Shown in pieces: positions 41,536 through 53,184 of a DNA stretch of 64,000 nucleotides. The number at the start of each line of letters is the position of its first letter. Within the stretch, counting starts at the first letter, position 1. This DNA is from Acidobacteriota bacterium (GTDB lineage: Bacteria; Acidobacteriota; Aminicenantia; Aminicenantales; Saccharicenantaceae): NCBI GenBank assembly GCA_039683095.1, contig JBDKSB010000011.1, positions 1 to 64,000 on the forward strand, written 5' to 3'. Position numbers and translations under genes: made by a program. Below the pieces are notes generated by a model. The model was not told where the DNA came from, did not search any database, and worked only from the letters and a program-made list of their open reading frames with translations.

Positions 41536-41895
41536 ATGGCGATACCCCTGGTGATAAAAACGCGCGAAGTCTCGAGCATCGTCGTCTTCGACATCGAAGG
41601 CGAGATCGCCCGTCAGGACACTCCCCAGGTCACGCTGTCCAGCCTGGTCCAGGGAGAGCTCGACCGGGGCCGCCGCAACGTCCTGTTCGATCTCTCCGGC
41701 GTGGGTTTCATCGACAGCTTCGGCGTCGGCGAGATCCTGGCCAGCTATAAATCGATCCAGAACCTGGGGGGGCAGCTCAAGCTCTGCCGCATCTCGCCCA
41801 AGCTCCTCCTGATCTTCAAGATCACCGGCCTCGACCGGGTCCTCGACATCCGGGAAGATTGCGGCCGGGCCCTGGAGAGCTTCGAACGGCCCTGA
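41536..41895 (+). CDS. STAS-domain anti-sigma factor antagonist
   Basis: Protein of 119 residues, a single STAS domain. The phosphorylation site S61 lies in FIDSFGVGEIL, equivalent to the serine of SpoIIAA/RsbV. In partner switching the RsbW-type kinase phosphorylates this serine and a PP2C phosphatase removes the phosphate; both enzymes are encoded downstream (46195 and 44519). It is the first gene of a four-gene unit from the promoter at 41498. No sigma factor is encoded in the window, so the final target is unknown. Confidence 0.88.
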   Translation: MAIPLVIKTREVSSIVVFDIEGEIARQDTPQVTLSSLVQGELDRGRRNVLFDLSGVGFIDSFGVGEILASYKSIQNLGGQLKLCRISPKLLLIFKITGLDRVLDIREDCGRALESFERP

Positions 41896-41923
41896 ACTTC
41901 GGGGCGCCTGAGAGGGGAGCCGC

Positions 41924-44479
41924 TTGACCGACGGCCGGCTCGAACGGTTGCTGCGGGGCTTCGGCGACGTCCGCGGCCGCGAGGCCCGGACGGCCCTGGC
42001 CCTGTCGGCCTACTTCTTCCTGATCACCGCCGCTTTTTACATCATCAAGCCGGTCAAGGAGAGCCTCCTCATCGGCATCCACCCGGCCTGGTGGTCGTAC
42101 GCCGACCTGGCCACGGCCCTGCTGATCGGCTTCGTCGTGGCCCTCAACGCCCGGCTCCTCGACCGCCTGCCGCGGCGGACCTACCTCACGGCCTCGCTCC
42201 TGTTCTTCATCGCCTGCTCGCTCGTCTTCTGGTTCGTCTTCGACGTGATCCGGACGAGCCAGATCCAAACGCCCGTGGCCGACTCCTCGGGGATCCTCTT
42301 CCTCCTCTGGGCCCAGACGGTCATCCTGGGGTCCAAGATCGTCCCAGTCTTCGTCTTCTGCTTCTGGGTCGACGTCTTCATCGCCATGGCCGTGACCCAA
42401 TTCTGGATCGCCGTCAACGACGTCCTCCATCCGCACCAGGCCAAGCGGCTCGTCGGCCTGTTCGTCGCGGGCGGCCTCTTCGGCGGCATCGCCGGCTCGG
42501 CCATCGCCTTCGGGGCGACCTCCCTCAGGGTCGTCCGGGCCGAGGACCTGCTGCTCGTCTGCCCGGTCCTGCTCGTCCTGGCCCTGGCGACGGTGAACCT
42601 CGTCTACGCGGAGCGGCAGAGGGTCGATGCCGGCGCGGGCGACGCCCGTCTCGCGCCCTCGTCCAAGGTCGGCTACCTGAAGAGCTTCCGCACGGTCCTG
42701 CAGAACCGCTATCTCAAGCTCCTGGCGGGGATGCTCGCCTCGGCCATCGTCGCCGGCACCCTGATCAACTATCAGTTCAAGACGGTCGTCAAGACCGCCT
42801 ACCCCGGCGAGCAGGCCCGGACCTCGTACATCGCCGTCTTCTTCCTCGTCATCCTGGCCGTTTCCACGGTCTTTCACCTGCTCACGACCGACCGGTTCCT
42901 CAAGACCTACGGCATCCGCTGGGCCATCTCGCTCGCGCCGCTGGTCCTGCTCCTCGGGTCCTCGGCGGTCTTCGTCATCCCGGCCGCCCTGATGCTGCCG
43001 TGGGCCTCGGTCGTCCGGGGCGCCGACAAGGGCTTCGACAACACTCTCAGCCAGTCCGTCCGCGAGCTCCTCTATATCCCGGTCGCGGCCGACATCAAGT
43101 ACAAGGCCAAGATCTTCATCGACATGTTCGTCAGCAAGTTCGCGACCGGCTTCGGGGCCGCGCTCTTCCTGGCCCTGCGCGCCGTCCGCCATTTCGATTA
43201 TCGCGAGGGCCAGGACCTGGCCATCATCCGCGAGATCGGGGTCCTGACGCTCGCTTTCATCCTGGGCTGGCTTGTCCTGACCAGGCTCGTCTACCGGGAA
43301 TACCCGGCCGTCCTGAAGCCGGCCATCCGGAAGAGGTGGCGCCGGGGCGACGAGGTCCTGGCGGAGCACGTCGACGAGGACCTGACCCTCAAGATCTTCA
43401 ACACCATCCAGAGCCGGGAGCGGAGCACCACCCTCTACCTCATGAACGTCTTCGACCTCGTCCGCCGCAAGGACCTGACACCGGAGCTCAAGTCCATCCT
43501 CGGCTTCAAGCGGGACGAGATCCGGGCCCGGGGCATGGATGCCCTCTTCGACGTCGGCGGCACGGGCTTCTTTCCGGGCCTCGAGGAAGCCATCGAGGAT
43601 CCGGCCTTCCAGCGGGAGATCGACCTGGTTTTCCTCCTGCCGGTCTACCAGGAGATCATGACCCGGCGGCTCGGCGAGATCGCGGCCTCGCCCTTGGATC
43701 TCGACCGGGTCGAGGTGGCCAAGCTCATCGGCCGCATGGTCCCGAACCCGCCCACGCTCGGGGCCCTGGGCCGGCTCCTGCGGGACCCCTCGTCCGAGGT
43801 CGCCCTCTACGCCCTCGAGAGCGCCGCGATACACCGCCATCCCGGCCACGTCCCCCTGATCCTGGCCCTGCTGGCCAATCCCATGCTCCGGGCCGAGGCC
43901 CAGGCGGCGCTGGCCGCCTACGGGCCGGGCCTCGAGGCCCTGGTCGCCCCGACGCTCCGCTCGGCCGACGCGCCCCTCGAGGTCCGCCGGGCCGTCCCCG
44001 AGGTCCTGGCCCGGGTCGGCACCCAGACCGCCGCCGATCTCCTGCTCGGAGAGCTGGCCCGCCGCGAGGAGGCCATGGAACAGGCCCTCGTCGACGCGCT
44101 CTGCAAGATCCGCCGCGGCCGGCCCGAGGTCCGGTTTCCCCGGAAGGCCGTCCGGCCGGAGATCCTGCGCCTCGTCCGGAAGGCCTGCGACATGGTCCTC
44201 GAGCCGCCGCCCGGACGGCCGGCCGAGGCCAAGGCCCTGCTCGAGATCCGGATCAAGATCGTCTTCGACCTCCTGACCCTGGTGCATCCGCCGGAGGACA
44301 TCGTCAAGGCCTACCAGAACATCCTGAGGGGAACGGCCCAGTCGACCGACTACTCGCTCGAGCATCTCGACACGCTCCTCGACCGGGAGCTCAAGGGCCT
44401 CCTCCTGCCGCTTGTCGACGAGGGGCTCTCGCCGGAGCAGCGGGCCCAGCGCGTCCGGAAAGCCCTGAGGTTGAAATGA
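41924..44479 (+). CDS. NTT-type nucleotide carrier fused to HEAT-like repeats
   Basis: Protein of 851 residues. About residues 20-440 form some twelve membrane helices with ATP/ADP-translocase-family features: an opening FFLITAAFYIIKPVKESLL and IKYKAKIFIDMFVSKF near 390, which recurs in the carrier at 48327. From about 470 to the end the protein is soluble and helical with HEAT-like repeats (LGRLLRDPSSEVALYALES and similar). Such proteins occur in free-living bacteria and their transport activity is largely untested. The start is TTG with GAGAGGGG upstream. It lies 28 bases after the STAS gene and 39 bases before the phosphatase gene, so the carrier seems tied to the regulatory switch. Confidence 0.8.
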   Translation: MTDGRLERLLRGFGDVRGREARTALALSAYFFLITAAFYIIKPVKESLLIGIHPAWWSYADLATALLIGFVVALNARLLDRLPRRTYLTASLLFFIACSLVFWFVFDVIRTSQIQTPVADSSGILFLLWAQTVILGSKIVPVFVFCFWVDVFIAMAVTQFWIAVNDVLHPHQAKRLVGLFVAGGLFGGIAGSAIAFGATSLRVVRAEDLLLVCPVLLVLALATVNLVYAERQRVDAGAGDARLAPSSKVGYLKSFRTVLQNRYLKLLAGMLASAIVAGTLINYQFKTVVKTAYPGEQARTSYIAVFFLVILAVSTVFHLLTTDRFLKTYGIRWAISLAPLVLLLGSSAVFVIPAALMLPWASVVRGADKGFDNTLSQSVRELLYIPVAADIKYKAKIFIDMFVSKFATGFGAALFLALRAVRHFDYREGQDLAIIREIGVLTLAFILGWLVLTRLVYREYPAVLKPAIRKRWRRGDEVLAEHVDEDLTLKIFNTIQSRERSTTLYLMNVFDLVRRKDLTPELKSILGFKRDEIRARGMDALFDVGGTGFFPGLEEAIEDPAFQREIDLVFLLPVYQEIMTRRLGEIAASPLDLDRVEVAKLIGRMVPNPPTLGALGRLLRDPSSEVALYALESAAIHRHPGHVPLILALLANPMLRAEAQAALAAYGPGLEALVAPTLRSADAPLEVRRAVPEVLARVGTQTAADLLLGELARREEAMEQALVDALCKIRRGRPEVRFPRKAVRPEILRLVRKACDMVLEPPPGRPAEAKALLEIRIKIVFDLLTLVHPPEDIVKAYQNILRGTAQSTDYSLEHLDTLLDRELKGLLLPLVDEGLSPEQRAQRVRKALRLK

Positions 44480-44518
44480 CCGGCCGCGTCATCTAGAATG
44501 GCCCCGGAGAGCGCGCTC

Positions 44519-46198
44519 ATGGCCACGTTGTACATCTACCCGAAATCGGGGGAGCCCTCGACCTACCCACTGGCCGGGAGCCGGGTCACGGTCGGCCGGT
44601 CGTCGGCCAACGACATCGTCCTGTCCGACCAGTTCAGCTCGGGCATCCACGCCGTCATCGCCCCGACCGAGCGGGGCTACGCCCTGATCGACCAGGGCAG
44701 CAAGAACGGCACCTTCGTCAACGGCCGCCGGGTCACCGGCGAGATCGACCTGGCCCGGGGCGACGAGATCCTGATCGGCTCGACCCGCTTCTACTTCGAC
44801 AAGGACTTCCAGCCGCCCGTCGAGACCGTCGAAGGGACGACCTTCACCCACAGCTCGAACACGATCATCCAGGTCAGCGACATCCTCAAGAAGCCGCCCG
44901 GCACCGGCGTCGTGATGAAGACCCCCGGTGGCGGGCTGGACCTCGAGCGCCTGCAGAAGGACCAGAAGACGAGCTCGATCCTGAGCGCCGTCAGCCAGGC
45001 CCTGATCTACCACATGCCGCTGGAGAAGCTCCTCGGCCACGTCATGGACGTCCTCATCCAGCACCTGCCGATGGACCGCGGCGTCATGATGCTCAAGAAC
45101 GAGGAGACCCAGGCCCTCGAGCCCAAGGTCGTCCGCATCCAGAACGGGGCCCTGCGGAACCAGAGCATCTTCGTCAGCCAGACCATCGTCCGGACGGCCC
45201 TGGAGCGCAACTCGGCCATCCTCGTCTCCGACATCCAGGCCGACGAAGGCCTGCGCGAGCAGTTCAGCGTCATCCAGGCCCAGATCCACTCGGCCATGTG
45301 CGTGCCCCTGTGGAACAACCAGGACATCATCGGCCTGATCTACTGCGACCGGGCCTCGCTCCTCGAGCAGTTCAGCGAGGACGACCTGCGGCTCCTGACT
45401 CTACTGGGCAACCTGGCCGCGGTCAAGATCGAGAACGCCCGCCTCTACGAGCTGTCGCTGAAGAAGGCCCAGCTCGACCGGGAGCTGGCCCTGGCCGTCC
45501 AGATCCAGAAGAACTTCCTGCCCCAGGCCGATCCGGACTTCGCGCCCTACGAGATCAACGGCAGCGCCCGGGCCTGCCGCCACGTCGGGGGAGACTACTT
45601 CGATTACATCGCCGTCGACAAGGACCGCCTGGCCGTGGTCATCGCCGACGTCTCGGGCGTCGGCGTCAGCGCCTCCCTGCTCATGGCCTCGCTTCGCGGC
45701 GGGTTGCACGAGCGGTTCCCCGGGGCCATCAACGTCAGCGAGCTGGCGTCCCGGCTCAACGACTTCGTTTACGCCAGCTCGGACAGCCACGTGTTCATCT
45801 CGTTCTTCCTGGCCATCATCGACCGGTCCCGGGACGAGGTCCGCTACGTCAACGCCGGCCACAACCCGCCGCTCGTCGTCGGCCGCAAGGGCCCGGCCCG
45901 GGCCCTCGGAACGACCGGCCTCTGCCTGGGGATGTTCCCCGACCAAGCCTACGGCGAAGAGACCGTCAGGCTCGCTCCCGGCGACGTCCTCTGCCTCTAT
46001 ACGGACGGCATCGTCGAGAGCCGCCAAACGGACGGCGAGGAATACGGCGAGGAGCGCCTGACGGAAAAGGTCCGGGAGCTCCGGGCCAGGCCGGCCCGGG
46101 AGATCCTCGACCGGGTCTTCGAGGACGTCTTCGCCTTCGGCGGCTCGACCGAGGCGTGCGACGACATGACCCTGGTCGTCGTCAAGCGGAATCCATGA
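44519..46198 (+). CDS. FHA-GAF-PP2C (RsbU/SpoIIE-type) phosphatase
   Basis: Protein of 559 residues with three domains. An FHA domain (about 1-95) has GRSS at 26, SSGIHA and NGTFVNG, a phospho-threonine reader. A GAF sensor domain follows (about 145-320). The C-terminal PPM/SpoIIE phosphatase (about 340-559) has metal-binding aspartates in GGDYFDY, ADVSGVG, TDGIVESR and DDMTLVVV. It most likely dephosphorylates the STAS protein at 41536. The FHA domain would let a Ser/Thr kinase, such as the one at 4966, feed into the switch (inference). An in-frame ATG at 44498 lacks a ribosome binding site; 44519 has CGGAG upstream. The stop overlaps the next gene. Confidence 0.9.
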   Translation: MATLYIYPKSGEPSTYPLAGSRVTVGRSSANDIVLSDQFSSGIHAVIAPTERGYALIDQGSKNGTFVNGRRVTGEIDLARGDEILIGSTRFYFDKDFQPPVETVEGTTFTHSSNTIIQVSDILKKPPGTGVVMKTPGGGLDLERLQKDQKTSSILSAVSQALIYHMPLEKLLGHVMDVLIQHLPMDRGVMMLKNEETQALEPKVVRIQNGALRNQSIFVSQTIVRTALERNSAILVSDIQADEGLREQFSVIQAQIHSAMCVPLWNNQDIIGLIYCDRASLLEQFSEDDLRLLTLLGNLAAVKIENARLYELSLKKAQLDRELALAVQIQKNFLPQADPDFAPYEINGSARACRHVGGDYFDYIAVDKDRLAVVIADVSGVGVSASLLMASLRGGLHERFPGAINVSELASRLNDFVYASSDSHVFISFFLAIIDRSRDEVRYVNAGHNPPLVVGRKGPARALGTTGLCLGMFPDQAYGEETVRLAPGDVLCLYTDGIVESRQTDGEEYGEERLTEKVRELRARPAREILDRVFEDVFAFGGSTEACDDMTLVVVKRNP

Positions 46199-46641
46199 GG
46201 GACGGGGCGGGAGGGAGCGCCGTGGCCGAACAGGACCCCAAGGAGCTCCGCGTCCAGGCCGACCTCAAGGAGATCGATCGCGTCCGGGCCTTCCTCCGGG
46301 AGGCCATCGCCGGCCTGCCCCTCGACGACGAAGCCCGGCTCAAGGTCGAGCTGGCCCTGCACGAGATCTGCGTCAACATCGCCCGCTACGCCTATCCCCG
46401 GGGCCGGCCCGGCGAGATGGCCGTCCGCATCTGGCGGGAGGGGGATTCGCTCTTCATCGAGGTCCGGGACCGCGGCATCCCCTTCAATCCCGTCCGGAAG
46501 AAGAACCCTGACCTGATGGTCAAGCTGCGGCGCGGAGTGCCCGGCGGCCTGGGCGTCTACTTCTTCAAGACGCTCATGGACGGCCTGTCCTACCGGCGGG
46601 CGGGCGGCCAGAACATCCTGACCGTGCGCAAGGCCATCTGA
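46195..46641 (+). CDS. RsbW-type anti-sigma factor / Ser kinase (GHKL fold)
   Basis: Protein of 148 residues. N box ELALHEICVNIA (E57, N61), G1 box VRDRGIPFNP and G2 box PGGLGVYF give a complete GHKL ATP site of the SpoIIAB/RsbW family. It should phosphorylate the STAS protein and, when free, bind a sigma factor or another target. The ATG overlaps the phosphatase stop as ATGA; a GTG at 46222 with GGGAGGG upstream is an alternative that would remove nine residues. Its stop abuts the end of the opposite-strand operon. Confidence 0.88.
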   Translation: MRDGAGGSAVAEQDPKELRVQADLKEIDRVRAFLREAIAGLPLDDEARLKVELALHEICVNIARYAYPRGRPGEMAVRIWREGDSLFIEVRDRGIPFNPVRKKNPDLMVKLRRGVPGGLGVYFFKTLMDGLSYRRAGGQNILTVRKAI

Positions 46642-47496
46642 TCAATAGAGGACCTTGTCCTTCCCGTTGACCTCGATCAGCCGGTCGATCTCCGCCAGGA
46701 CGAGGTCCCGCCGGACGATGACGGCGCGGACCTCCTCGTCGGTCAGATAGTCGCCGACGGCCGCCCGGATGGCGGCGGCGTCGAGGGCCCTGACCTTGGC
46801 CACCACGTCCCGGGGCAGCTCGCTCATGAGCCTCGGCCCCTCCGGCGACTTGGCCGAATAGATGAGGCTCCTGACGAAGCGGCCCGAGGTCCGGAACGAG
46901 CGCGAGTGGTCGATCAGGACCATCCGCCAGTCGCTGGTGATCAGGATCTGGTTCATGTGGCGGTCCTCGTTGGCGATGAGGTTGTCGAGGAGTCGCTGGA
47001 GGTAGGTCGCCCGGTTCCAGCCCAGGACCTTCCGCGGCGGGATCTTGAGGCCCTTGTCCTCCTTGTCCCGCACCGAGATGCAGTCGTCGACCCAGTACTG
47101 GCAGGAGCCCCGGTCATCGCGGAAGCGGCGCTCGACCGTGGGCGGCACGAGTCCCAGGCCGAGGAGCTTGTCCAGGCGGTAGGCGGCGATCTCGTACTGC
47201 CAGCCCTCCCAGTAGCCGCCCATGCGGCCCTCGGCATTCTTCCACAGCCCGCGGTGCTTGACGCCGTCGAGCTCGAGCATCAGGACCCAGGGCGAGGTCA
47301 CGGCTTCGGACCCCGTCATCTGCCGGCTCTCGCTCTCGATGACCGCGGCCCCGGACAGGAAGGCCTCCCAGCGGCCGCGCTGGGCCAGCTCCTCGGCCGG
47401 GAATTGCCGGGCCGCGGCCGGGTCCTCGCACCCGGCCGGCAGGGCCGCGGCCAGCGCCGCGACCAGGGCCAGGACGGCGGCGGCCCGCGGGCTCAA
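46642..47496 (-). CDS. Lipoprotein with atypical (PI3K/Fam20/HipA-like) kinase domain, paralogue 1
   Basis: Protein of 284 residues. The signal ends in a lipobox LPAGC (C23), so it is probably a lipoprotein. The rest shows an atypical kinase pattern: K86 in GLWKN, E102 in the WQYEIAAYRLDKLLGL helix followed by VPP, a catalytic loop NEDRHMNQ (176-183) and a metal-site aspartate D196 in LIDHS. These match the D-R-H and D-x-G-like motifs of PI3K/HipA/Fam20 relatives. However, the asparagine normally six places after the loop Asp is Gln here, with Asn one place earlier. It begins at TTG, overlapping the stop of its paralogue by three bases. The C-terminal tail R-D-L-V-L-A-E-I-D...V-L-Y is shared with both other paralogues. 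Kinase activity and target are unproven. Confidence 0.6.
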   Translation of the reverse strand: MSPRAAAVLALVAALAAALPAGCEDPAAARQFPAEELAQRGRWEAFLSGAAVIESESRQMTGSEAVTSPWVLMLELDGVKHRGLWKNAEGRMGGYWEGWQYEIAAYRLDKLLGLGLVPPTVERRFRDDRGSCQYWVDDCISVRDKEDKGLKIPPRKVLGWNRATYLQRLLDNLIANEDRHMNQILITSDWRMVLIDHSRSFRTSGRFVRSLIYSAKSPEGPRLMSELPRDVVAKVRALDAAAIRAAVGDYLTDEEVRAVIVRRDLVLAEIDRLIEVNGKDKVLY

Positions 47497-48326
47497 TAGA
47501 GCACTCCCTGACCCTGCTCCCGGACCATCAGGTCGATCTCCCGGAGCAGCAGGTCCCGGCGGGCCAGGATGCCCCGGACCTCCTTGTCCGTCAGTGTCTT
47601 TCCGGCGGCGGCGCGGACGTTGTCGAAGGTCAGGGCCTTGATCCGGTCGACGAACGAGCGGGGCAGCTTGCGGAAGAGGAAAGGCGCTCCCGATTCGCCC
47701 GTCTTGATGCCGTTGCGGCCGAACATCAGCCTCTCGTCGAATTCGCCGCCGCTGCGGAAGGCCCGGGAGTGGTCGAAGAGGATGACCCGCCAGTCCTTGG
47801 TGTATAGGATGTTCTGCTGGGTCCGGTCCTCGTTGGCGATCAGGCTGTCCCAGGCCCGGGCCAGGTACTTCATCTTCTCCGTGTGGTCCTGGGCCTCGTC
47901 GGGGATGCGGATGCCCTGTTCGACGATCGTGAGCAGGCTGTACTTGTTCTCGACCCAGAGGACCAGGGCGCCGGCCTGGCCCTTGAAGCGGCGCTCGACG
48001 GCCGGCGGGACCATGTTCAGCCCCAGGAGCTTGTCCAGGCGGTAGGCGGCGATCTCGTACTGCCAGCCCTCCAGGAAGCCGTTCAGGTAGCCGCGGGGAT
48101 TTTTCCAGGCGGCCTTGCGCTCGAGGCCGTCCTTTTCGAGATAGAGGCGCCAGGGATTGGTCACGCCCTCGCCGATCTGCTCGAACTTGACGATGCGGGC
48201 CGTCCGGAGGAACTCCTCCAGGGCCGGGCGCTGGGCGATCTCCTCGGCCAGGAACTGGGCCCGGGCGGCCGCCGGTCCGGCCGCCGCCGCCAAGGCCAGG
48301 GACAGGAGGACGACGGATCGTTTCAT
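47493..48326 (-). CDS. Exported protein with atypical (PI3K/Fam20/HipA-like) kinase domain, paralogue 2
   Basis: Protein of 277 residues with a cleavable signal peptide (about 1-23, ending AARAQ). Kinase-like motifs are K75 in AAWKN, E91 in WQYEIAAYRLDKLLGL, VPP, catalytic loop NEDRTQQN (165-172; Asp and Asn correctly spaced, His replaced by Thr) and D185 in LFDHSRAF. The end reads R-R-D-L-L-L-R-E-I-D...V-L-Y. GGAGG precedes the ATG, which directly follows the stop of the nucleotide carrier gene. Being exported, it would need ATP or another nucleotide outside the cytoplasm. I identify the fold from motifs only. Confidence 0.65.
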   Translation of the reverse strand: MKRSVVLLSLALAAAAGPAAARAQFLAEEIAQRPALEEFLRTARIVKFEQIGEGVTNPWRLYLEKDGLERKAAWKNPRGYLNGFLEGWQYEIAAYRLDKLLGLNMVPPAVERRFKGQAGALVLWVENKYSLLTIVEQGIRIPDEAQDHTEKMKYLARAWDSLIANEDRTQQNILYTKDWRVILFDHSRAFRSGGEFDERLMFGRNGIKTGESGAPFLFRKLPRSFVDRIKALTFDNVRAAAGKTLTDKEVRGILARRDLLLREIDLMVREQGQGVLY

Positions 48327-49823
48327 TCAGACCTCCCCGGCGGCCGCGTCCAGGGCCGCCTTCCGCTTTTTGTAGGCGGGAATGATCCTGAGGCAGATGC
48401 CCAGGAGCGCGATGACGACGACGACGTTGAGGAGGGCGAAGCGCTCGATCGGCAGGCCCATGAGCCGGGTGCCGGCCAGGACGGCCAGGGCCGAGAGCGT
48501 GTCCCCGCCGCGGACGAAGAAGGTGTCGATGGCCGCCTTGGCCTTGTACTTCTCCTCGCGCTTCGTGACCAGGAAAAGGGCCGCCTTGGTCGTGTTCTGA
48601 AGGGAGTAGTCCGTGCCGTTCTCCAGGGCCTTGACCCAGCGGACGAGGACCAGGACGGCGCCGAAGGAGATCAGGGCGTAGCCGCCCAGGGCGATCAGGG
48701 GCAGGAAGAGGAGGGCCCCGCTGACCCCGATCCATTTGAAAACGCGCGAGACGACGAAGAGCTGGATGATCAGGGCGATCAGGTTGGTCAGCAGCTGGTA
48801 GTCCATGAAAGCGTCGTGGATGGCCTTCTCCCCGGTCCGGGCCGGCAGGTCCTGGACCGCGGCCCGCGGGCCCTCCGTCGCCGCCGCCTCCGCCGGAGCC
48901 GGCGCCGGGGCCGCGGCGGCGATCGACCGGTCGACGGTGACCTTGGTGATGATGAACTCTCCGGTCGCGTTGACGAAGTTGTAGAGCCCGATCATCAGGG
49001 CGATGAGCAGGAGATAGCGGCTCCGGAAGACGAGCCGGAAGCCGCCGCCGGCCTTCAGCGGCTGCTCCTGGAGCCTGGCCCGCGCCTCGGCTCCGGCCTG
49101 GCCGCTCTCCCGGGCCTCGCGGGCGGTCCGGACCTCGCGGCGGTGGATCGAACGGGCCAGGAGGATGCAGGCGAAGAGGATGCCCCCGGCGAGGAGCATG
49201 AGCTTGAATTCCCAGTGGCTGCCCAGGAGGTCCCGCAGCTTCTTCATGAACGGCAGGGTGGCGACGAGGCCGCCCGAGGTCGCGCCCAGGGCCACGAGGG
49301 GAAAGGTCCGTTTGCCGACCTCGTCGGAATAGAGGTCGTTGGCGAAGCCCCAGAACTGGGCGATGACGAAGTAGTTGAAGATGCCGATCCAGATGAAGAA
49401 CAGGATGCCCATGGGCTTGTCGGCCAGGCCCCCGAGGTCCAGAAAATAGAAGATAACCAGGTTGGAGATGAAGAATGACGTCGTCCAGGTGATCAGGACG
49501 TGGCGGGGGACCCTGGAAGACAGGCGGCTGAAGGCCTTGACGACGAAGACGAAGAGGACGGCCTGGGCCCCGCTCAGGCAGCTCTTGACGACGGCCGAGT
49601 CCTTGTCGACGAGGAGGAGGGCCTCGCGCAGCGGCTTGAGGATGTAATAGGCGAGGAGCAGGAGGAAGACGTTCAGGGCCAGGAGCAGCGCCTTGGCCGC
49701 TTCGCCGGGCCGGATGTCGGCGAAGATCCGCAGGAACCGGTAGCCCAGGCTGTAGCGCGGCGCCGCCTCTGAAGCGGCGGCCGGGGCGGCCGTCTGCGGG
49801 GGATCGGGCAGCGGGGTTCCCAT
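48327..49823 (-). CDS. NTT-type nucleotide carrier (ATP/ADP translocase family, MFS fold)
   Basis: Protein of 498 residues with about twelve membrane helices. Family words include AYYILKPLREALLL (about 57-70) and YKAKAAIDTFFVRGGD (near 420), the latter shared with the carrier at 41924. The known members exchange ATP for ADP or import nucleotides in plastids and intracellular bacteria; homologues in free-living bacteria are poorly studied. A low-complexity Ala/Pro/Glu loop lies near 300. It sits nine bases after the phosphatase-kinase gene and directly before kinase-like paralogue 2, so it is co-transcribed with exported kinase-like proteins. No good ribosome binding site precedes the ATG. Confidence 0.8.
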   Translation of the reverse strand: MGTPLPDPPQTAAPAAASEAAPRYSLGYRFLRIFADIRPGEAAKALLLALNVFLLLLAYYILKPLREALLLVDKDSAVVKSCLSGAQAVLFVFVVKAFSRLSSRVPRHVLITWTTSFFISNLVIFYFLDLGGLADKPMGILFFIWIGIFNYFVIAQFWGFANDLYSDEVGKRTFPLVALGATSGGLVATLPFMKKLRDLLGSHWEFKLMLLAGGILFACILLARSIHRREVRTAREARESGQAGAEARARLQEQPLKAGGGFRLVFRSRYLLLIALMIGLYNFVNATGEFIITKVTVDRSIAAAAPAPAPAEAAATEGPRAAVQDLPARTGEKAIHDAFMDYQLLTNLIALIIQLFVVSRVFKWIGVSGALLFLPLIALGGYALISFGAVLVLVRWVKALENGTDYSLQNTTKAALFLVTKREEKYKAKAAIDTFFVRGGDTLSALAVLAGTRLMGLPIERFALLNVVVVIALLGICLRIIPAYKKRKAALDAAAGEV

Positions 49824-49832
49824 GTGGCGCGG

Positions 49833-51692
49833 TCAGAACAGGACCCGGGCCTCGCCCGCGGTCCTGATCAGGAAGCGGATCTGCCGGATGAGGAGGTCCT
49901 TCCGGGAGTTGAGGGCTTCGATCTCCTCCCGGCCGAGGTAGCGGCCCATGTAACGGGCGACGGCCCGGTCGTCCCAGGCCAGGAGCCGGCCGAAGAGGAG
50001 CCGCGAACAGCGGCTCAGCTGGCAGCCCGAGCCGGCGCCCCTGTCCGGGGCGAAGGCCTCGGAGAAGTCGACGCGGAAGACGCTGTCGTCGTCGTCGCGG
50101 ACGAGCGTGTCGTTCTCCTTGCGGCAGTCGTCATTGACCAGGGCCTGGAAGACGACGAGGTCCGCCCGGGCCCGGTCGTAGGCCTCGGGGTCCCTCGGCG
50201 CGATCCGCATGTCCCGGCGCTCGGCCGGCGTCCGGGCCCCGGAGACAAAGGCCTGCACGGCCCCCGGAACGCCCTCGACGGTCCGCTCGACGATCGGCGG
50301 GACGACCTCGAGACCGAGATACTTGCTCAGGGCATAAGCGGCCAGGTCGTAGCGCCAGCTGTCGGCCAGCGGATCGGGCCGCGGCCGGTCGATGTACTTG
50401 AACACGGCCGGCAGGCTGATCCCCTGTCCCTCGAGGCTCAGCTTCCAGGCGTCCGTGCGGCCGCCGATGCCGGGGCCGCGCTTGACGACGGCGGCGGAAC
50501 GCAGGAAGGCCTCCATCTCCCGCGGGGAAAGGGGCTTCGGCGGGGGCGGCCGGATGCCGCTTCGGGCGGCCACTTCCTCGGTCTCTCCCCAGACCTTGAA
50601 CTCGCCGCGGTCGTAGATGAGGGCCGAGGGGATGCCGCCGTAGCTGCCGGAGATGCCGGTGTCCATGATCCAGACCTTGCCCTGGAAGCGGACGACGCTC
50701 GTCCGTTCGACGGTCGCGCTGGGCCCGGCGTTGAAGCGGAAGTAATTATGGCCGACGACCATGGCCCTGGCGCCGAGGTTGGCCAGGGTCCGGTCGATCT
50801 CGGCCTGGGCCGAGGCCTCGTTCTTCGTGGCCAGCCCCCGGAACCAGAGCGGGCTGTCCGGGTCGTAGACCAGCCGGGGATGGAAGGGCCGGGCGTATTC
50901 CTGCGGGTTGCGCATGCCCCCCTGGAAGAACTCGAGCTCGCTGCGAATGACGCGGTTGATCTCCCGGATCGGCCACCTGGAGATGGCCTCGCTGAGGCCG
51001 CCGTGGGCGTAGACGACGTCGTTGATCTTGATGACCGCGTTCTGCCGGACGAGCCAGCCGCCGCAGGTCGCGTTGAAGCCGAGGACGTAGGCCCGCCGGG
51101 CCTCGGCGTCCCTGGAGGCCATGACCTTGCTCCAGAACTCGGCCAGCCCCTCGTCGCTCTGGATGTCGAGGCCCTCGATCTCGGCCCGCTGCCGTTCGCC
51201 GGGGGAGAGGGTCTTGAGATACTTTTCCTCCCGCTGCCGGCGGAAATCCTCGGGCAGGAAGGCGACGAACTGCTCGACGGGGACATAGCCCGGGTAGTCG
51301 AGGGCGATGCCCGTGATGTTCATCTCTTCGTGGTTGCCGAGGATCATGTGGACCGCGCCGCCGGCCTCGGCCGCTTCTTTCTCGAGACGCCGGAGGAGGT
51401 TGAAGATCTCCCTGGCCCGCGGCCCCCGGTCCATGACGTCGCCGAGCTGGACGAGGTGCGTCCGGCCGCCGGTCCAGTGGAGATCGTTGTCGACGAGCCC
51501 GATCTGGGGGTGGGCCAGGATGAAGACGAAGCGGTCGTAGTCGCCGTGGAGGTCGGCGACGGCCACAACCCGCTCGACGCCTTTCCATTCGTAGGGGATC
51601 TCGTCGGCGTGGGAGAGGAGAGGCAGGAGGGCGAGGGACAGCCCCAGGAGGAGCGAACGGAACCCCGGGCGGCCTTTCCTGCTGATCACCAT
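49833..51692 (-). CDS. Exported PPP-type metallophosphatase fused to an atypical kinase-like domain
   Basis: Protein of 619 residues. A signal peptide (about 1-29, ending SHA) is followed by a calcineurin-like phosphatase domain (about 38-370): DLHGD (47-51), GDVMDRG (84-90), GNHEEMN (119-125), AHGG (229-232) and VVGHN (312-316). The GNHE-x-M-N form is that of Shewanella-like PPP phosphatases. After a Pro-rich linker (380-390) comes a kinase-like domain (about 395-619) paralogous to the two downstream proteins: K432, D449 in place of Glu in the WRYDLAAYALSKYLGL helix, loop NDDCRKEN (520-527), D542 in RVDFSEAF, and the shared C-terminal tail ending V-L-F. It leads the four-gene operon. A GTG one codon after the ATG could be the real, leaderless start, given the promoter position. 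Confidence 0.75.
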   Translation of the reverse strand: MVISRKGRPGFRSLLLGLSLALLPLLSHADEIPYEWKGVERVVAVADLHGDYDRFVFILAHPQIGLVDNDLHWTGGRTHLVQLGDVMDRGPRAREIFNLLRRLEKEAAEAGGAVHMILGNHEEMNITGIALDYPGYVPVEQFVAFLPEDFRRQREEKYLKTLSPGERQRAEIEGLDIQSDEGLAEFWSKVMASRDAEARRAYVLGFNATCGGWLVRQNAVIKINDVVYAHGGLSEAISRWPIREINRVIRSELEFFQGGMRNPQEYARPFHPRLVYDPDSPLWFRGLATKNEASAQAEIDRTLANLGARAMVVGHNYFRFNAGPSATVERTSVVRFQGKVWIMDTGISGSYGGIPSALIYDRGEFKVWGETEEVAARSGIRPPPPKPLSPREMEAFLRSAAVVKRGPGIGGRTDAWKLSLEGQGISLPAVFKYIDRPRPDPLADSWRYDLAAYALSKYLGLEVVPPIVERTVEGVPGAVQAFVSGARTPAERRDMRIAPRDPEAYDRARADLVVFQALVNDDCRKENDTLVRDDDDSVFRVDFSEAFAPDRGAGSGCQLSRCSRLLFGRLLAWDDRAVARYMGRYLGREEIEALNSRKDLLIRQIRFLIRTAGEARVLF

Positions 51693-51840: not shown

Positions 51841-53184
51841 ATGAGACAACGAACGGATCTCGCCGCGAACGCCCTGGCCGTCATCCTGGCCGCGGGCCTG
51901 GGACTGGCCCTCGCGGCCTGTGCCGGCCGGGAGAAACCGTCCGGGCCGCCGGCGGCCGCCTCCGTCAGCCGGGTCAAGCCCGGGCTCGAGGTCTTCCTCG
52001 AGAAGCATCTCGACCTGGTCAGGGGCAAGCGGGTCGGGTTGATCACGAACCAGACGGGCACGGACGCGGGCCTGCGCTCGACCGTGGAGCTCTTCCAGGC
52101 CAACCCGGCCATCCGGCTGGTGGCCCTCTACGGCCCCGAACACGGCGTCCGGGGCAACGCCCAGGCGGGCGAGTACGTGCCCTTCTATTACGACGAGGCC
52201 TACAAGCTGCCGGTCTTCAGCCTCTACGGGCAGTCCTTCAAGCCCGATCCGGGCATGCTGAAGAACATCGACGAGTACATGCGCTCCTTCGACACCCGGG
52301 AGGCGGGCAAGGTGCCGGAAGCGGCCATGGTCCAGGGGGTGGACGTCCTCGTCTACGACATCCAGGACGTCGGGACGCGCGTCTATACCTATATCGCGAC
52401 CATGGCCTATGCCATGCAGGCCGCGGCCGAGGCGGGCATCGACTTCATCGTCCTCGACCGGCCCGCGCCCATCGACGGCGAGGACATGGAAGGGGCGGTC
52501 CTCGAGTGCCCGAGGTTCAGCTCGTTCGTCGGGCTGTACCCGATCCCCCTGCGTTTCGGCCTGACGATGGGCGAGATGGCGCGCCTGTTCAACGACAAGT
52601 TCCAGTCCCGCCCGGCCCGGCTGACGGTCATCCCGATGGAAGGCTGGTCGCGGTCGATGTGGTTCGACGAGACCGGGCTGCCGTGGGTCATCCCGTCGCC
52701 GAACATGCCGACCCTGGGCACGGCGACCGTGTATCCGGGGCTGGTGGCGCTCGAGGGGACCAACCTGTCCGAGGGCCGGGGCACGACCCGGCCGTTCGAA
52801 TACTTCGGAGCGCCCTGGATAGACGGCCACGCGCTGGCCGCGCGGCTGAACGCCCTCAACCTGGCCGGGGTCCGCTTCCGGGAGGCCTGGTTCACGCCGT
52901 ACTTCTCGAAGTTCCAGGGCCAGCTCTGCGGCGGCTGCCAGATCCACGTGACCGACCGGAAGACCTTCCGCCCGGTCGCCGTGGCCCTGCACATCCTCAA
53001 GGCGGCGCGGGAGATGGCCCCGGACAAGTTCGCCTTTCACGCCGACTACTTCGACAAGGTCATGGGCACGGCCTCGGTGCGCCTGGCCCTCGAGGCGGGG
53101 ACGGACGTGGCCGCCATCCTGGAGAGCATGCGGCCGGGGCTCGAGGCCTTCGCTTCGCTCCGCAAAGAATATTTGCTTTATTAA
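51841..53184 (+). CDS. namZ: DUF1343 lipoprotein, exo-beta-N-acetylmuramidase (NamZ) family
   Basis: Protein of 447 residues with a lipobox LALAAC (about 22-27). The family features are clear: VGLITNQTGTD, LYGPEHGVRG, YDIQDVGTRVYTYI, PSPNMPTL and EGTNLSEGRGTTRPFE. NamZ removes terminal N-acetylmuramic acid from peptidoglycan fragments, in cell-wall recycling or feeding on foreign wall. The lipoprotein signal places it in the periplasm or on the outer membrane. The gene is divergent from the exported kinase operon and is followed by a terminator-like repeat. Symbol given by family, not proven orthology. Confidence 0.87.
   Translation: MRQRTDLAANALAVILAAGLGLALAACAGREKPSGPPAAASVSRVKPGLEVFLEKHLDLVRGKRVGLITNQTGTDAGLRSTVELFQANPAIRLVALYGPEHGVRGNAQAGEYVPFYYDEAYKLPVFSLYGQSFKPDPGMLKNIDEYMRSFDTREAGKVPEAAMVQGVDVLVYDIQDVGTRVYTYIATMAYAMQAAAEAGIDFIVLDRPAPIDGEDMEGAVLECPRFSSFVGLYPIPLRFGLTMGEMARLFNDKFQSRPARLTVIPMEGWSRSMWFDETGLPWVIPSPNMPTLGTATVYPGLVALEGTNLSEGRGTTRPFEYFGAPWIDGHALAARLNALNLAGVRFREAWFTPYFSKFQGQLCGGCQIHVTDRKTFRPVAVALHILKAAREMAPDKFAFHADYFDKVMGTASVRLALEAGTDVAAILESMRPGLEAFASLRKEYLLY

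Follow-up and report, generated by a model that had tools for sequence, protein, structure and literature searches.

Introduction

The FAM20 proteins of animals are secretory-pathway kinases, among which Fam20C is activated by a pseudokinase, Fam20A (PMC5865150). The FAM20 cluster has been called specific to eukaryotes or Metazoa in one survey (PMC9758233), and a review speaks of the conservation of FAM20 across animals (PMC7948968). Other described relatives of the proteins considered here are the bacterial SCO1664 family (TIGR03843) together with HipA_2 and PI3/PI4-kinase-like proteins, the Shewanella-like protein phosphatases (PDB 1v73, 2z72), the RsbU-RsbW-STAS modules, and the NTT transporters with their NTT-HEAT fusions; NTT proteins are known to be widespread in free-living bacteria, where they lack an assigned function (PMC5381601). 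Here we describe a four-gene locus at positions 46642-51692 of a 64,000-nucleotide window of DNA (positions 1 to 64,000 of contig JBDKSB010000011.1; all coordinates below are window positions) from an Acidobacteriota bacterium of the class Aminicenantia, whose genome (GCA_039683095.1) comprises 3.29 Mb in 13 contigs. A sequence-only reading had proposed that the locus encodes a phosphorylation system acting outside the cytoplasm. The predicted fold and the linkage of the genes support this proposal, and we consider it probable that the locus encodes a reversible extracytoplasmic (envelope) phosphorylation system served by a nucleotide carrier of its own. The proposal had to be amended in that the kinase-like domain fused to the phosphatase is a predicted pseudokinase, encoded by a separate gene in most relatives, and in that the conserved neighbourhood is larger than first described.

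Results

The four genes are tightly packed on the minus strand, with spacings of 9 and 0 bases followed by one 4-base overlap, and all of them lie where the sequence-only reading had placed them. The gene designated D (49833-51692; 619 residues) encodes a putative exported Shewanella-like metallophosphatase (residues ~1-375) with a C-terminal FAM20-like domain, here termed Dk. It is followed by the gene for an inner-membrane carrier of the NTT (ATP/ADP translocase) family (48327-49823; 498 residues), by kinase B (47493-48326; 277 residues), a predicted exported FAM20-like kinase with an intact active site, and by kinase A (46642-47496; 284 residues), a predicted exported FAM20-like kinase with a D-R-H catalytic loop, whose TTG start codon overlaps the TGA stop codon of kinase B. 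Chance open reading frames were ruled out by homologues and synteny in related loci. The single promoter that had been suggested for the operon was not found, as no minus-strand sigma-70-like site was detected upstream. Among named relatives, genomes of Candidatus Aminicenantes are the closest. The genome of the window encodes Omp85 proteins, indicating a two-membrane (diderm) envelope and hence a periplasm.

The kinase-like core noticed earlier was found in all three exported kinase-like proteins. Searches with single sequences gave weak hints only (TIGR03843/SCO1664, PI3K, FAM198, HipA_2 and FAM20B 5xom). The PI3K-like family TIGR03843 matched all three proteins below its cut-off (43, 28 and 29 bits versus 172.4; kinase A at 2.4e-11) and was matched by all 48 members of the kinase alignment. 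Pfam Fam20C matched none of the window proteins and FAM198 gave 0.017; among kinases from outside the class, Fam20C was matched in 4 of 14, at best at 7e-4, below the curated cut-off. Profile searches by sequence alone reached FAM20A, FAM20B and FAM20C at 9e-6 to 3e-4, and a profile built on relatives outside the class reached FAM20A at 3e-11. An AlphaFold2 model of kinase B, made from the alignment of 48 relatives, had a pLDDT (predicted local distance difference test) of 95.2 and a pTM (predicted template modelling score) of 0.92. When this model was compared with the PDB by Foldseek, Fam20C was the best match (E 3.2e-9), followed by PI4KIIalpha (1e-7) and the HipA-like CtkA (9.5e-7); the top entry was DrFam20C1, with a TM-score (query) of 0.65. 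Structure prediction and fold search of 47493-48326 therefore gave a kinase fold of the FAM20/PI4K/HipA type, and the modelled fold of kinase B is FAM20-type. The bacterial kinases share with FAM20A, FAM20B and FAM20C the predicted fold, the profile matches and the predicted export, but they are shorter (~255 residues versus ~380-430 in solved Fam20C chains) and share their locus with a carrier and a phosphatase. From the SCO1664 family they differ in their low scores and, again, in their predicted export.

The same matches bear on a different explanation, in which the kinases modify an envelope glycan or lipid, as do the xylosylkinase FAM20B and PI4K, and the phosphatase trims the same group, so that the locus would serve a decorating pathway and not signalling. 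FAM20B and PI4KII are among the profile matches, and PI4KIIalpha stands second after Fam20C in the fold search. In addition, kinase A has the D-R-H loop of FAM20B, in which the catalytic Asp299 and His301 contact xylose (PMC5865150), though D-R-H is not unique to FAM20B. Weighed with the phosphatase and the neighbouring genes described below, we judge this explanation unlikely.

Essentially all orthologues of kinases A and B have the Lys (W-K-N/D/G), the alpha-C Glu, the catalytic loop and the metal-binding Asp (D-H-S) in place. The catalytic loop reads N-E/D-D-R-T-x-x-N in nearly all B orthologues (NEDRTQQN in the window) and N-E-D-R-H-x-N-[NQ] in nearly all A orthologues, while kinases from outside the class mostly have D-R-N-x-x-N followed by D-H/F-[ST], with some variation and with catalytic residues intact in most copies. 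The catalytic set of the free kinases A and B is thus intact, and both are predicted to act as kinases. The kinase fold can also serve other chemistry, as in SelO and SidJ, and the NTT and NTT-HEAT proteins could in principle be membrane sensors or transducers without flux, accompanied by kinase-like proteins that use another donor or catalyse AMPylation or glutamylation. The canonical Lys/Glu/Asp/Asp set kept by A and B argues against this idea, which we regard as very improbable.

That all three kinase-like proteins are active kinases was rejected for the phosphatase-linked domain, which corrects the sequence-only reading. In Aminicenantia, the catalytic Asp of that domain is replaced in essentially all relatives, usually within Y-D-x-C or an unrelated sequence, the Lys is changed to Arg in several, and the later Asp (D-F-S) alone is retained. 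The Dk domain of the window matched the A2 profile at 8e-53, and the phosphatase-linked domains form a single clade with support of 100/100 that includes the copy of locus L050 from another class. Because the catalytic Asp is lost, Dk is probably a pseudokinase, and its presence beside the predicted active kinases A and B parallels that of Fam20A with Fam20C. Elsewhere in the same genome, a fourth exported FAM20-like kinase with an intact active site was found (G000:C12:24434-25183; L026, L028). It is solitary, flanked by secA and by a gene that probably encodes an exported peptidase, with no carrier or phosphatase gene nearby.

Export was judged by a simple hydrophobicity scan. A hydrophobic N-terminus, which had been read as an export signal in the window proteins, was conserved in every orthologue examined (23/23 for B, 18/18 for A, 9/9 for Dk and 9/9 for the phosphatase). 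Kinase A has a lipobox-like LPAGC motif, with LLAC or GLAC in near relatives, and is probably a lipoprotein in this genus.

The N-terminal part of D matched Pfam Metallophos at 1.4e-8 and, over the catalytic domain, the structures of Shewanella tyrosine phosphatases (PDB 1v73/2zbm/2z72) at 2.4e-30. The metal-site motifs D-x-H, GDxxDRG, GNHE and H, shared with these Shewanella-like phosphatases, are invariant in 10 relatives. Those of the family for which structures exist have been described as protein tyrosine phosphatases, which speaks against a glycan or lipid as the modified group. The phosphatase of the window differs from them in being fused to, or in relatives encoded next to, a FAM20-like (pseudo)kinase. 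As the phosphatase and Dk are separate genes in most Aminicenantia relatives, we rejected the fusion as the usual state in this class. Fusions of phosphatase and kinase also occur in other classes, with intact kinases in L056, L077 and L078 and with a pseudokinase in L050.

The carrier belongs, as proposed, to the ATP/ADP translocase family, matching Pfam TLC (PF03219) at 6e-14 and 52.2 bits, above the cut-off of 21. A profile of the carrier reached the PDB entries 9j3n at 2.9e-12 and AtNTT1 at 1.2e-5. For a carrier model of moderate confidence (pLDDT 72.7), the four best Foldseek matches in the PDB were 9j3m, 9j3l, 9j3n and 9j3o (E 5e-11 to 5e-9), which are the four solved NTT structures (AtNTT1 and Chlamydia NTT1). 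The motifs FWGFAND, DYSL and REEKYKA are strongly conserved in the family alignment; these blocks speak for a working carrier, with transport predicted from sequence, and such conservation of charged and aromatic motifs is a further point against sensors without flux. The carrier differs from described NTT and NTT-HEAT proteins in its setting, since a kinase/phosphatase neighbourhood is not mentioned for them in the available text of PMC5381601. The nearest solved structures raise the question of import, as the characterised NTTs of intracellular bacteria take up ATP, according to the same text (PMC5381601). The carrier might then import nucleotide from outside, as in Chlamydia and Rickettsia, and the kinases might use environmental ATP or act on material that is taken up, in a module for scavenging or for interaction with a host or prey. 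The genome of 3.3 Mb (2-10 Mb in relatives) is unlike those of obligate parasites, however, and plain uptake would leave unexplained why the carrier is so tightly linked to a kinase and a phosphatase that are exported, so that this alternative appears quite improbable to us.

Among 20 related loci, nearly all of those on sufficiently long contigs retain the succession phosphatase, Dk, NTT, B, A; the variants comprise an extra copy of B in L011, L013 and L014 and an NTT gene moved downstream in L012 and L022. The set is carried by a group of mostly uncultured bacteria and is conserved across Aminicenantia. Of 142 genomes from the class, 56 carry kinase as well as NTT genes and 71 carry neither (kinase only in 14, NTT only in 1); for kinase and phosphatase genes, 60 carry the pair and 69 neither (kinase only in 10, phosphatase only in 3), all of these counts being inflated by shared ancestry. 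Within genus g4 (G059-G077, 19 genomes), six genomes have all three families, 12 have none and one (G074) has the NTT only, an all-or-nothing pattern that suggests loss or transfer as a unit.

Linkage was also found in 31 genomes of other Acidobacteriota classes, for which shared operon ancestry is less of a concern than within the class. There, a phosphatase gene lay within 5 kb of a kinase gene in 17/56 cases (0.14 expected), an NTT gene within 5 kb of a kinase gene in 10/56 (0.38 expected) and an NTT gene within 5 kb of a phosphatase gene in 8/30 (0.19 expected), so that the three families cluster ~25-120 times above chance; eight genomes have all three inside 7 kb. In one of these classes the fusion, a cyclic nucleotide monophosphate (cNMP)-binding protein and an NTT-HEAT protein are encoded in a row (L083), and a complete chromosome of 7.48 Mb carries kinase, phosphatase and kinase in succession (L081). 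Carrier and phosphatase genes therefore adjoin kinase homologues elsewhere in the phylum, as the proposal of a functional set had implied. A single weak match outside the Acidobacteriota (L023, labelled Lentisphaeria) was unconfirmed by profile, and 0 of 145 genomes of the phylum of L023 gave a match in a search that had no positive control. A plasmid search with kinase B gave no match, and the plasmid-borne reading was dropped. Defence-island membership was likewise rejected, the PADLOC matches being marginal only. Kinase B has a weak PADLOC match to the candidate defence family PDC-M66A (E 0.0017).

A second operon on the plus strand (41536-46641) converges on the first and belongs to the conserved neighbourhood, enlarging the set described earlier. 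It encodes an anti-anti-sigma-like STAS-domain protein (41536-41895; Pfam STAS 4e-15), NTT-HEAT, which is the second homologue of nucleotide carriers and bears HEAT repeats at its C-terminus (41924-44479; Pfam TLC 1.8e-11 and HEAT_2), an RsbU-like FHA-GAF-SpoIIE phosphatase of the PP2C type (44498-46198; Pfam SpoIIE 7e-49, FHA 2e-18, GAF 7e-15) and an RsbW-type HATPase, or anti-sigma kinase, abutting kinase A (46222-46641; Pfam HATPase_c_2 8e-26). SpoIIE, HATPase_c_2 and STAS genes are likewise found in one operon in RsbU-RsbW-STAS modules, but the module of the window includes a carrier and adjoins an envelope kinase operon. The RsbW-type gene adjoins kinase A in most Aminicenantia loci, a STAS gene lies near the kinase genes in 16/30 loci, NTT-HEAT is found in the same neighbourhood in many relatives, and FHA-GAF-SpoIIE is conserved in near relatives. 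Some loci of other classes have response-regulator, histidine-kinase and cNMP-binding genes instead of the partner switch. Since RsbW and STAS genes in Aminicenantia are matched by these genes in other classes, a cytoplasmic signalling partner is a recurrent companion of the kinase set. The adjacency of NTT-HEAT genes to STAS, cNMP-binding and response-regulator genes is a point in favour of the sensor idea raised above.

Against the glycan or lipid alternative stand the partner-switch, response-regulator and cNMP-binding genes in the vicinity, which point to signalling; moreover, none of the recurrent neighbours could be recognised as a glycosyltransferase or lipid gene. In its favour, near relatives have a NamZ exo-muramidase gene divergently placed next door. 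In the window this gene (51841-53184) is divergent from the operon, and a glutamine synthetase gene adjoins; as both are kept only in near relatives, they were left out as parts of the system. We favour a protein as the envelope target that the kinases would modify, over a glycan or lipid, in view of the protein phosphatase structures known from the phosphatase family and of the signalling genes that accompany the set.

Three further observations concern genes of the kinds found in the convergent operon. In other Acidobacteriota classes (L083, L086, L059, L079 and L087), NTT-HEAT genes near kinase or phosphatase genes have cNMP-binding, response-regulator or histidine-kinase genes as companions. 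In L068 (6629-9028), an M28 peptidase gene lies beside RsbW and FHA-GAF-SpoIIE is away from its usual place. ARAGORN reported a tRNA-Pro (cgg) on the minus strand at 41925-42010, inside the NTT-HEAT gene, which is probably a false positive.

Discussion

In the extracytoplasmic phosphorylation system that we propose, the NTT in the inner membrane would exchange cytoplasmic ATP for periplasmic ADP, and the exported kinases A and B would transfer phosphate from this ATP to an envelope substrate, from which the exported Shewanella-like phosphatase would remove it. Dk would probably dock the phosphatase to the kinases or to the substrate (compare FAM20A with FAM20C), and the operon of STAS, NTT-HEAT, FHA-GAF-SpoIIE and RsbW would probably couple the phosphorylation state to cytoplasmic regulation.

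Several points weigh against this proposal. The activity of all these proteins is predicted, and their export rests on hydrophobicity and not on a trained predictor such as SignalP; because the scan is simple and favours starts that give a hydrophobic N-terminus, the evidence for export is supportive, short of proof. One alignment column that holds Glu in both solved NTTs (near residue V169 of the window carrier) is variable in this family. The substrate and direction of the carrier are put forward conditionally, because NTTs outside parasites and plastids are uncharacterised (PMC5381601). As for linkage, common descent inflates the counts within the class, the NTT adjoining kinases outside the class is of the NTT-HEAT type and not of the plain type, the NTT is not adjacent to kinases in several genomes, and G074 has an NTT with neither kinase nor phosphatase.

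No component has a new fold, and the kinases lie above no family cut-off tested. In the open-licence literature on bacterial Fam20/SCO1664 kinases and on periplasmic ATP or kinases, no bacterial system with this set was found described, in agreement with what the sequence-only reading had stated. Because the kinases fall below the tested cut-offs, no described set was found and FAM20 is described as an animal or eukaryotic family, we rate the system as new for bacteria, one that would operate in the manner of the animal FAM20 system without being filed as a FAM20 member. More tentatively, we suggest that a dedicated periplasmic ATP supply, an NTT in export mode, may power exported FAM20-like kinases and a pseudokinase-tethered phosphatase, as a bacterial counterpart, possibly a relative by descent, of animal secretory phosphorylation, whose state may be read by the cytoplasmic partner switch through NTT-HEAT.

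ATP-dependent phosphorylation is generally taken to end at the inner membrane, the periplasm being without an ATP pool. If the proposal is true, exported kinases and a phosphatase paired with a carrier in a conserved operon would break this rule. They would also point to a function for some, at least, of the NTT proteins that are uncharacterised in free-living bacteria, and FAM20-like kinases would then have a place in a bacterial phylum.

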